Below the pieces are notes generated by a model. The model was not told where the DNA came from. It ran no database searches and worked only from the letters and a program-made list of their open reading frames with translations. Positions 81 to 4,801 of a DNA stretch of 5,417 nucleotides are shown here, one piece after another. The first letter of the stretch is position 1, and the number at the start of each line of letters is the position of its first letter. Source of the stretch: Nitrospirota bacterium (lineage in GTDB: Bacteria > NPL-UPA2 > JAADIA01); the NCBI GenBank assembly GCA_013151555.1, contig JAADIA010000053.1:1-5417 (forward strand). Direction: 5' to 3'. A program made the translations under genes and the position numbers.

Positions 81-1601
81 CTACTCTAATCCCTGTTCGG
101 CGATTTCGAGGGCTTTGAGGAGGGCTTTGGCTTTATTCTTCGTTTCCTGATACTCCTTTTCGGGACGGGAATCAGCGACAATTCCCGCTCCCGCCTGGAC
201 GTAGGCAGTATCTCCTTTCACCACAATGGTTCTAATGGTAATACAGCTATCCAAGTTTCCCGAGAAGCCGAAATATCCCACTGCTCCCGCGTAAGGACCT
301 CTCCTTGTCGGTTCCAGTTCCTCAATTATCTCCATGGCTCTCACCTTGGGAGCTCCGGTCACCGTCCCGGCGGGGAAACAAGCCTGGAGGACATTAAACT
401 GGTCTTTCCCTCTTTTCAGTTTGCCCACTACATTGGAGACAATATGCATCACGTGGGAGTATTTCTCGATGGTCATCATCTCATCAACGCGTACGCTGCC
501 GTAACGGCATACCCTTCCCACATCGTTCCTTCCCAGGTCAACAAGCATAATATGTTCGGCTTTTTCCTTGGGATCAGCCAATAGTTCCTTCTTTAAAATT
601 TCATCTTTTTTCTCATCCGCTCCCCGGGGTCTTGTCCCGGCGATCGGTCTTAAGGTAACCTTGCCCTTCTCAGCCCGGACCAGAATCTCCGGGGAGGAGC
701 CGATAATCTTCAAGTTTCCAAATTTCAGGAAATACATATAAGGCGAGGGATTGACCGACCGCAGAGCCCGATAGAGGTCAAAGGGATCTACCTTAATCTT
801 CTTCTCCCACCTCTGGGAGAGAACGACCTGGATAATATCCCCTGCTCTTATATAACCTTTAGCTTTCCGCACGCTTTTTATAAAACTTGTTTTGGTAAAG
901 TTAGATTTAAGCGGGGATCTGGTTTTCCTGCCCCGGGGCCGGGGAACAGCAAGGGCAGGTTTCCGCAACCGGGCGACAACTTCCTCTATCCTCTCCGTAG
1001 CTGATTTATAAGCTCTGTCCACCTGCCGGCGAGAAGGGATAGCGCTCTTTTCGATGAAAGCATGAGAGACAACCTTCATAGTATGATTGACATGGTCAAA
1101 GATCACCAAGCAAGAGCTGAAAACAAAGATACAATCGGGCAATTTCAGATCGTCAACGTTTTCCTGGGGAAGCGTTTCGAAGAAGCGGACCATATCGTAA
1201 CCGATATAACCTACCGCCCCTCCCGGGAAGCGAGGAAGTCCCGGGGAGATGACAGGCTTATATTCCGACATAATCTCTTTCAACGCTTGCAGGGGGTCGC
1301 CTTTAACGGTTATCGTCTCTTTCTTCCCATCCCGGATAATTTCCACCTTACTCCCTTTGCTTTTAAAGACGAGCTCGGAACCGCTTCCCAGGAAAGAGTA
1401 CCGGGCCAATTTCTCCCCTCCCTCCACGCTCTCTAAAAGATAGGAATATTCATGGTCGGCAATCTTCCGGAAGGCAGAGACCGGCGTCTCCATATCCGCC
1501 AATATCTCCCTATAAACAGGTATCAAGTTCCCCCTTTTAGCCAAGCGCCGAAACTCTTCCTTACTAGGAAAAAAAAGGGGACAGGCTACTTTTTTATCCA
1601 T
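81..1601 (-). CDS. trpE: Anthranilate synthase component I (TrpE)
   Basis: TrpE converts chorismate to anthranilate, the first committed step of tryptophan synthesis, using ammonia delivered by the glutamine amidotransferase subunit TrpG in the cytoplasm. The 506-residue length is normal for the family. The N-terminal domain carries the feedback-inhibition motif LLES (residues 55-58) within SYLLESVEGGEKLARYSF. The chorismate-binding domain has PIAGTRPRG (319-327), HIMLVDLGRND (350-360), the EKYSHVMHIVS stretch near 380, and PAGTVTGAPK (410-419), followed by GPYAGAVGYFGFSG. All key segments are present, so it should be active and Trp-sensitive. It starts with ATG six bases after the stop of the upstream CoA-activase gene, with only a weak GATGGG in place of a Shine-Dalgarno. 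The first ten residues (MDKKVACPLF) come from a repeat element; homologous proteins usually begin close to FPSKEEF. No trpG or other trp gene lies beside it, so its partner must be encoded elsewhere. Confidence 0.96.
   Translation of the reverse strand: MDKKVACPLFFPSKEEFRRLAKRGNLIPVYREILADMETPVSAFRKIADHEYSYLLESVEGGEKLARYSFLGSGSELVFKSKGSKVEIIRDGKKETITVKGDPLQALKEIMSEYKPVISPGLPRFPGGAVGYIGYDMVRFFETLPQENVDDLKLPDCIFVFSSCLVIFDHVNHTMKVVSHAFIEKSAIPSRRQVDRAYKSATERIEEVVARLRKPALAVPRPRGRKTRSPLKSNFTKTSFIKSVRKAKGYIRAGDIIQVVLSQRWEKKIKVDPFDLYRALRSVNPSPYMYFLKFGNLKIIGSSPEILVRAEKGKVTLRPIAGTRPRGADEKKDEILKKELLADPKEKAEHIMLVDLGRNDVGRVCRYGSVRVDEMMTIEKYSHVMHIVSNVVGKLKRGKDQFNVLQACFPAGTVTGAPKVRAMEIIEELEPTRRGPYAGAVGYFGFSGNLDSCITIRTIVVKGDTAYVQAGAGIVADSRPEKEYQETKNKAKALLKALEIAEQGLE
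1572..1592. repeat. Left inverted repeat arm
   Basis: This arm reads AAAAAGGGGACAGGCTAC plus TTT on the + strand and is flanked by further A residues outside and T residues inside. On the minus strand it encodes KVACPLF at residues 4-10 of TrpE, so the repeat is translated in this copy. Confidence 0.75.
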
Positions 1602-1607
1602 TACCCA

Positions 1608-2867
1608 TCACTTTTTCTTAGTCTTTCTCATAGTCTGATTGTTGATTACAATCCAAACACTTTCCCGACTCACATCCACCATAATAAGTTTACCATTTGG
1701 AGATTGACGAATAACACTATGGCCAAATCTCTCCAGCTCTTTTTCCCTTAAATAAAGGTTCATCCACACGGCTTTAAAGTAGCCTGTTCCCCTTTTTCGC
1801 CTTCTTTCTAGCAGGTCTACAAAAGCCTCCAGACGGGTTATCATGCCCGCTTCCCCGGTATGCTCATCAAGGATGAAGTTGAGGACCGGCATATCATAAT
1901 GGCGGCTCACTTTGGGAAGAATGCTCTGGGCAACAATCTCCGGCATACAAGTAAAAGGCATTAAATGAATGAGACCATCATAGCCCCGCTGCTTGGCGAT
2001 AATAGTATTTCCTACCGAGATGTTGCATTCCGCTCCCACATTATATCCCAAGTAAGGCTCCGCTGCTTTTAAGGCCCGGCTCTTTGACCTCCAGTTCCAG
2101 AAATCCAGATGGATGCGGTGAAGAATATTCTCACTTAACCAAAGGCACCTTACTACTTCCACTCCCATCTCACCTAATTTAGTCTCTATATTCAAATTGA
2201 CAAAGGGTTCCCAGACAACATAGATCTCTCCGGTAACGGCAATCCTTAAGGGACGACGGCTCCGGTCTTGTTTGATGTTCTTCAATAAGCTCAGGCTCTC
2301 TCTTCCAACCTCTCTTAACCGAGAAATGTTCTCCGATGCATCTATCATCTTGATCGACTGCTGGTATACCTTGGTCGTCTCTCCTCGATTCACTTCGCAA
2401 GGGCGAATCCGGTGGCTCCGCCGTTCAATTCCCTCACAAAGCCTCATCTTGCGCCAGCCCAGCCAGAAAGCAGAGACAATCTCCCTTCGGGATTTGTCCC
2501 GGCCAAGATCGGCCAACCCTCCCACAAACTCGTTGCCGGACCGATTGGTAAGAGTAATCATACGGAAATCGTAACCCAACTCCCTGAGAATAACTTGGTG
2601 TATTCGGGCATAAAAACCTAACCGGCAGGATCCTTTGCCACTATCCCCGACCATAAGAAGGGTATCCGCTCCGCTTTCCAACCCCTCAATAAAATTGCCC
2701 AGATTTACCTTAAAGGGCAAACAGGCAAATTCGGGAGAATGTCTCATTCCCAGGTTGAGAGTTCTCCGGCTCGTCGGAGGAGGAATAACGACCTCTTGCC
2801 CCAACCCTTCCAAGATAGCTTTAACAACGATATTCATATGTCCCATATGAGGGAAAGTGATTTTCAC
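1608..2867 (-). CDS. CoA-activase/2-hydroxyacyl-CoA dehydratase-related protein (DUF2229/COG3581 type) with an acquired C-terminal extension
   Basis: The protein resembles the COG3581 group, which is related to components of the 2-hydroxyglutaryl-CoA dehydratase system: an ATP-driven activase plus an iron-sulfur dehydratase, acting on acyl-CoA in anaerobes. Recognisable stretches are MKITFPHMGHMNIV at the start, VVIPPPTSRRTL (26-37), SPEFACLPFKVNLGNFIEGL (44-63), LLMVGDSGKGSCRLGFYARI (70-89), VTGEIYV (211-217), GLIHLMPFTCMPE (298-310) and DEHTGEAGMITRLEAFVDLLERR (334-356). Cys49, Cys81 and Cys307 are candidate cluster or active-site cysteines. The physiological substrate is unknown. The GTG start is chosen because the family begins MKITFPHMG and GGAGAGGA lies 7-8 bases upstream. 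Family-like sequence stops near residue 358; the remaining 60 or so residues, starting at RGTGYFK, are encoded by the inserted repeat element. trpE follows after 6 bp, so co-transcription is likely. Confidence 0.85.
   Translation of the reverse strand: MKITFPHMGHMNIVVKAILEGLGQEVVIPPPTSRRTLNLGMRHSPEFACLPFKVNLGNFIEGLESGADTLLMVGDSGKGSCRLGFYARIHQVILRELGYDFRMITLTNRSGNEFVGGLADLGRDKSRREIVSAFWLGWRKMRLCEGIERRSHRIRPCEVNRGETTKVYQQSIKMIDASENISRLREVGRESLSLLKNIKQDRSRRPLRIAVTGEIYVVWEPFVNLNIETKLGEMGVEVVRCLWLSENILHRIHLDFWNWRSKSRALKAAEPYLGYNVGAECNISVGNTIIAKQRGYDGLIHLMPFTCMPEIVAQSILPKVSRHYDMPVLNFILDEHTGEAGMITRLEAFVDLLERRRKRGTGYFKAVWMNLYLREKELERFGHSVIRQSPNGKLIMVDVSRESVWIVINNQTMRKTKKK
1776..1797. repeat. Right inverted repeat arm
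   Basis: This is the reverse complement of the left arm apart from one extra base (TGTTCCCC against TGTCCCC). On the minus strand it encodes KRGTGYF in the CoA-activase protein (around residues 358-364), exactly where the conserved family sequence ends. Confidence 0.75.
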
Positions 2868-4187: not shown

Positions 4188-4801
4188 ATGAACACTGGCA
4201 GGACCGCCATTAACTTGGCCTGGAACAGGTTCTCTTCCCTTAATCCGGAGTTAGTAGCAAGAGCAGGTAAAGTAAAATACAGAGAAGATAAGTTTGAGGT
4301 CCCCTTTCTCGCAGATACATATATTATAGACAGGGAAAATCAAAAGGTCCTCAGGGATAAGGCCGAAGCAGGAGATTATTTCTCCATCCTTATTCTCCAT
4401 TACTTAATTGGAGTAAAAGATATACCTCTATCAGGAAAGATACTTTCTTTTAAGAATCTTCCCTCGGGTCGCTTTTACTTTTCCGCTTTTCGCCAGAGAA
4501 GTCTCCAACCATTAATTGAAACTTTCGGAAAGCGTCCGGGTTCCTTACTTGCCGCAGGAGAAGCTTTAGGGGCAGAGAAGTTTGCTCAGGGAGATGCCGG
4601 GATTACCGTGAAAGTATTTCCCATGTTGCCGTGCCGATTTCACTGGTCATCTGGAAAGGGGATGAGGAATTGCCTCCCGAGGCAACCATCCTCTTTGATG
4701 CCACAGCTTCGCAGATACTGGAGACAGAAGACCTCTCGGCTGCCGCAGGAATGCTTGTCCGGCGCCTGGTCAAGGAAAGCAAAGGGAACTTACGAGGATA
4801 G
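4188..4801 (+). pseudogene. DUF3786 protein gene, interrupted by a one-base frameshift
   Basis: DUF3786 proteins are about 200-residue cytoplasmic proteins of unknown function found mostly in anaerobic bacteria and archaea. Residues 1-145 match the family layout: AINLAWNRFSSLNPELVARAG, YIIDRENQKV, ILILHYLIG, GRFYFSAFRQRSLQPLIETFG and AQGDAGITVKVFP. From base 4620 the original frame continues with unrelated sequence to a stop at 4881-4883. The -1 frame instead carries the missing family C-terminus, HVAVPISLVIWKGDEELPPE, then ATILFDATASQILETEDL and MLVRRLVKES, ending at TAG 4799-4801. Restoring one C in the run TTTCCCATG (4617-4625) would give a full-length 204-residue protein. No slippery heptamer is in phase with the reading frame, so a mutation or a sequencing or assembly error is more likely than programmed frameshifting. 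Start choice is secure: ATG with AAGGAG seven bases before it. The gene is divergent from the XRE-cupin gene. Confidence 0.88.

Follow-up and report, generated by a model that had tools for sequence, protein, structure and literature searches.

A probable deleted relic of a REP-type transposable unit at the junction of a dehydratase-like gene and trpE

How did a segment bounded by inverted repeats come to occupy the junction of two adjacent genes, and how do both genes remain readable? The locus lies in a 5,417-nucleotide window, meaning the whole stretch of DNA analysed. Here a gene for a CoA enzyme activase/2-hydroxyacyl-CoA dehydratase-like protein (DUF2229; 1608..2867, minus strand, 419 aa; Pfam DUF2229, 8e-12) is followed on the same strand by trpE, which encodes anthranilate synthase component I (81..1601, minus strand, 506 aa; TIGR00564, 600 bits, above the cut-off).

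Results

An inverted-repeat segment on the junction

The core arms of the segment, at 1572-1592 and 1776-1797, are members of a dispersed inverted repeat, AAAAAGGGGACAGGCTACTTT, and differ in length (21 versus 22 bases) because an extra A is present in the arm nearer the dehydratase gene (GGGGAACAGG). Read in the coding orientation, the left terminal inverted repeat is AAAAGGGGAACAGGCTACTTT with one extra A (1776..1797, minus strand) and the right one is AAAGTAGCCTGTCCCCTTTTTTTT (1567..1592, minus strand), the outer T-run of which leaves the exact edge uncertain. Extended to 1566-1592 and 1776-1802, the arms span 27 nt, are 85% complementary and are separated by 183 nt. The 226-bp segment contains the 3′ end of the upstream gene with its TGA stop (1608-1610), a 6-nt gap and the ATG of trpE (1599-1601), all on the minus strand. 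It is short, carries terminal inverted repeats and lacks a complete transposase, as MITEs do; the arms, the missing transposase, the gap and the start codon are all present as an earlier, sequence-only reading had described them. That reading also held that such arms were very unlikely to arise by chance. Exact inverted seeds of 12 bases, on their own and no more than 400 nt apart, also appeared in 13 of 100 shuffles of the window and, as a short inverted match alone arises in this way, the decisive evidence is the length of the arms together with their dispersion. The judgement is borne out by the 16-mer AAAGGGGACAGGCTAC, which occurs in 15 exact copies in the 1.81-Mb genome against none for the reversed control. 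Five of the six reading frames are open through the repeats, and a promoter search of the segment returned weak consensus matches at most. No target-site duplication is evident in the flanks, and the spacer of the order-mate G001 is too divergent to reveal a target-site footprint. Such duplications would not be expected of Y1 transposases.

Dispersion of the repeat

The dispersed and often paired copies that the same reading anticipated were found. Facing pairs in the genome have gaps between their cores of 18 nt (contig C22), about 460 nt (C15) and about 710 nt (C1); contig C28 carries a close back-to-back pair, and solo repeats lie on C9, C23, C25, C39 and C49. In the examined loci there were 232 distinct copies, including 58 facing pairs separated by 6-175 nt and four pairs at 685-708 nt. 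The 16-mer was present in 11 of 386 sampled genomes and, among the matches listed in the named collection, its hosts include Aminicenantes, Omnitrophota, Elusimicrobia, Desulfotomaculum, Desulfoscipio, Geobacter relatives, Myxococcaceae, Nitrospirae and others. The 16-mer had no copy in the four order-mates examined (G001-G004). No paper in the literature searched gives GGGGACAGGCTAC in its running text, as distinct from its figures. On contig C15 (~17053-17546; locus L039, 1057-1544) a 488-bp segment enclosed by the same repeats, which reach about 50 bp at this site, contains a tRNA-Arg (TCG anticodon) and a remnant resembling, by eye, the N-terminus of a different REP-type transposase. No second close copy of this tRNA-Arg exists in the genome, where the next best is 83% identical.

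Intact units bounded by the same repeats

On contig C1 an open reading frame of 224 codons (6236-6907) lies between a forward repeat at 6192 and a reverse repeat at ~6916-6931, providing the intact REP-associated Y1 transposase gene for which the sequence-only reading had suggested a search. The product matches Pfam Y1_Tnp (4e-16), NCBIfam REP_Tyr_transpos (REP-associated tyrosine transposase; 80.8 bits, cut-off 80) and the PDB entry for TnpAREP, 4er8 (3.5e-5), its sole solved relative by sequence. It displays an HUH motif (NHFHL, HFH) and a tyrosine in RYVEGNPVRANL, while Pfam detected no HTH domain in it. Units with the same repeats and transposases 63-67% identical occur in Omnitrophota (L137), TA06 (L087) and a deltaproteobacterium (L121). 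One repeat, identical over 21 bases, serves REP-type transposases of ~65% identity across several phyla.

REP-type transposases flanked by long inverted repeats with GGGGWSAS in common were described by Di Nocera et al. (2013) under the names TIRYT and TIRtron, and the same authors reported that these repeats are also dispersed, both singly and in pairs (PMC3733652). Most transposases of the TIRYT type have been placed in TnpAREP subclass 2.1 (PMC6006769). The present repeat reads GGGGACAG, which agrees with the published consensus (PMC3733652), and the same inverted repeats bound a Y1/HUH REP-type transposase gene on C1 (6192-6931) and at L087, L121 and L137. In motif and layout, the repeat fits the TIR/TIRtron (TIRYT) type rather than the REPIN.

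In complete units at L121 (3885 onward), L137 (845 onward) and L036 (6928 onward) the right-hand repeat abuts the start of the downstream gene. By eye, these genes are WecB-like, acylphosphatase-like and Rossmann-fold-like, respectively, and their native start codons seem to have been altered or lost. A second, divergent Y1 transposase, 32% identical to that on C1, is located at the end of contig C42 (25310-25609; L035, L038), with no copy of the repeat in view.

The interior derives from a transposase gene

By Smith-Waterman comparison, the interior of the segment matches REP-type Y1 transposase genes at their 3′ ends and retains a frameshifted remnant of the C-terminal ~50 codons (1593..1764, minus strand). 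Against the 3′ end of the C1 gene the DNA scored 43, compared with 14 ± 2 for dinucleotide shuffles, none of 1,000 reaching 43. Across four TIRtrons the scores were 43, 46, 28 and 26, with shuffle maxima of 20-24, and all four alignments were collinear with the 3′ ends of the units, which places the interior with an autonomous element as its source. The interior frames read, in order, VDEP, LREKELERFGHSVIRQSPNG and LWWM*VGKVFGL*STIRL, the counterpart in L121 being VNEPVTAKELERIRQSVIRQAPYGDESWRLQLSKDLGLESTVRP. The layout thus runs from the left repeat through about 11 nt and the final ~170 bp of a unit, which are frameshifted, to the right repeat; this collinear 3′-end match, with repeats at both ends, identifies the segment as an internal-deletion derivative. 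The interior occurs once in the genome, whereas an amplified MITE would be present in many copies.

Both reading frames include codons supplied by the element

The predicted dehydratase/activase-like protein ends in a 62-aa C-terminal tail (residues 358-419; 1611..1796, minus strand) that is encoded by the element, as is the TGA that follows it (1608..1610, minus strand). Homologues in seven other genomes align only to residues 1-361 of the 419. The predicted N-terminus of TrpE is likewise element-encoded, with its ATG at 1599-1601 and residues MDKKVACPLF (1572..1601, minus strand). In seven other genomes of the phylum, which comprises nine in the searched set, alignments of the TrpE orthologues start at residue 9-10, or at 3-4 in one case, and none shows an N-terminal extension; starts in relatives include MNYCPSLKEF, MYYPSLELF and MYHPTIEEF. 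A relative without the segment, another of the observations that the sequence-only reading had called for, is G001 of the same order, in which the two genes are adjacent (proteins 73% and 70% identical) with no repeat between them. Its junction consists of a dehydratase ending ...RRKSCKPQ*, a spacer of about 17 nt and a TrpE beginning MNYCPSLKEF. The homologues without these ends and the empty site in G001 indicate that the native stop and start codon disappeared together with the spacer and that the element supplies the replacements, namely 62 codons and a stop at the end of one gene, and an ATG with about 10 codons at the beginning of trpE. The earlier proposal that the element was kept because neither frame was destroyed therefore holds in that both genes are readable, but the native stop and start have gone and new ones come from the element itself.

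The tail peptide had no match in plasmids, phages or named genome contigs, a single weak, chance-like match in 290 genomes, and no Pfam family. An origin as a separate protein was rejected, as the peptide has no convincing relatives. An assembly error may account for the extra A in the left repeat; were this A absent, the tail would end after about 12 residues, still within the element. Elsewhere in the window, the DUF3786 gene (4188-4801) contains an apparent 1-base frameshift near 4615-4630 that puts its C-terminal part in another frame (VPISLVIWKGDEELPPEATILFDATASQILETEDLSAAAGMLVRRLVKESKGNLRG*), through either decay or an assembly error in this contig.

Repeat edges often coincide with gene stops

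Among 214 repeat copies in the examined loci (L051-L196 and contigs of this genome), 139 had a frame of at least 150 codons ending no more than 400 nt from the outer edge. The stop fell within -10 to +6 nt of that edge in 44 of the 139, against 51 of 724 control A-runs, and overlapped the A-run of the repeat in 19, compared with 22 of the 724; 16 of these 19 read T|AA, the repeat contributing the AA. The control A-runs were unmatched for gene density, making the effect size approximate. This coincidence is in line with the report of Di Nocera et al. that REPs lie close to 3′ ends and often supply the stop (PMC3733652). Gene starts showed no enrichment, 17 of 127 outward open reading frames having a start within 15 nt of the edge compared with 139 of 971 in the control.

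Discussion

With the dispersal of the repeat, an intact donor-type unit on C1, a transposase-derived interior and an empty site in a relative all observed, we put the probability at roughly 0.9 that the segment is a decayed TIRtron copy, non-autonomous and reduced by internal deletion. A TIRYT, likely the one on C1, would have acted in trans to insert this copy between the dehydratase-like gene and trpE, probably after the split from the order-mates, a timing suggested by the absence of the 16-mer from the four examined; a full unit may instead have inserted and later undergone internal deletion. The native stop, spacer and start codon have gone, and the open frames of the repeats, with the TGA and ATG of the remnant, would have kept both genes readable. 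As these two codons are 6 nt apart, re-initiation of trpE translation could be coupled to that of the upstream gene. The protein ends that the element contributes are most probably neutral. We consider it unlikely that the tail and start are translated and useful, with the transposase end taken into the dehydratase/activase-like protein and the stop-start pair coupling translation of trpE. The movement of this particular copy, the interior of which is single-copy, is presumed.

The sequence-only reading had proposed a MITE or REPIN. Its view of a non-autonomous element stands, but the segment is not an amplified MITE subfamily, since a single-copy interior marks a single deletion relic, nor a REPIN, since the single arms form no REP hairpin. 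A canonical REPIN, comprising two inverted REP hairpins mobilised by a RAYT, would be in keeping with the assignment of the C1 transposase to the NCBIfam REP-associated family and with the inner end of the repeat, which reads GTAG. We nevertheless judge it very unlikely, as single arms lack the hairpin with its GTAG foot (pairing of the A-run and T-run is weak, -1.4 to -2.4 kcal/mol) and the repeats lie as terminal repeats on either side of the transposase gene, as in the published TIR type. More improbable still is that the inverted repeat forms a regulatory RNA or attenuator of trpE. Although the strand folds with -69.5 kcal/mol (z -4.3 against shuffles) immediately upstream of trpE, this stability derives mainly from arm-arm pairing that is the same at unrelated loci, an Rfam search of the segment gave no match, and the segment is absent upstream of trpE in relatives.

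Two independent insertions of solo repeats, at the dehydratase end and at the trpE start with native sequence between them, have a precedent in the solo copies on five contigs of this genome. The sequence between the arms, however, is transposase-derived and collinear with the unit 3′ ends right to the repeat, and the two genes of G001 have nothing of the kind between them, leaving this account a smaller probability again. Least credible, to the point of being almost negligible, is an inverted repeat arising by chance, or a chimera of metagenome assembly; the window is the whole of a 5.4-kb contig and the repeat is multicopy, but the exact genomic copies contrasted with none in the control, and the genes on both flanks are adjacent in G001.

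The deleted TIRtron copy offers a checkable case in which donor unit, empty site and remnant are available together and one element replaces both a stop and the start of the next gene. Its family shares with published TIRtrons a REP-type Y1 transposase between long inverted repeats that carry GGGGWSAS, and dispersed singles and dimers occur in both (PMC3733652); this copy differs in that it retains no more than the last ~170 bp of the unit, spans a gene junction and supplies a stop and a start codon. The REPINs and REPs associated with RAYTs (Bertels and Rainey 2011, PMC3116915) are likewise paired, inverted short repeats with proposed mobilisation by a related transposase, and REPs are often near gene 3′ ends, sometimes supplying the stop codon (PMC3733652), but REP arms are hairpins with a GTAG foot and the arms described here are not. 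Rickettsia palindromic elements are also palindromic repeats turned protein-coding (as cited in PMC3733652), although most of them lie within genes, in frame, and no transposase dedicated to them is known, whereas the present element sits at a junction and is transposase-derived. This element neatly illustrates a type already known rather than a new one.
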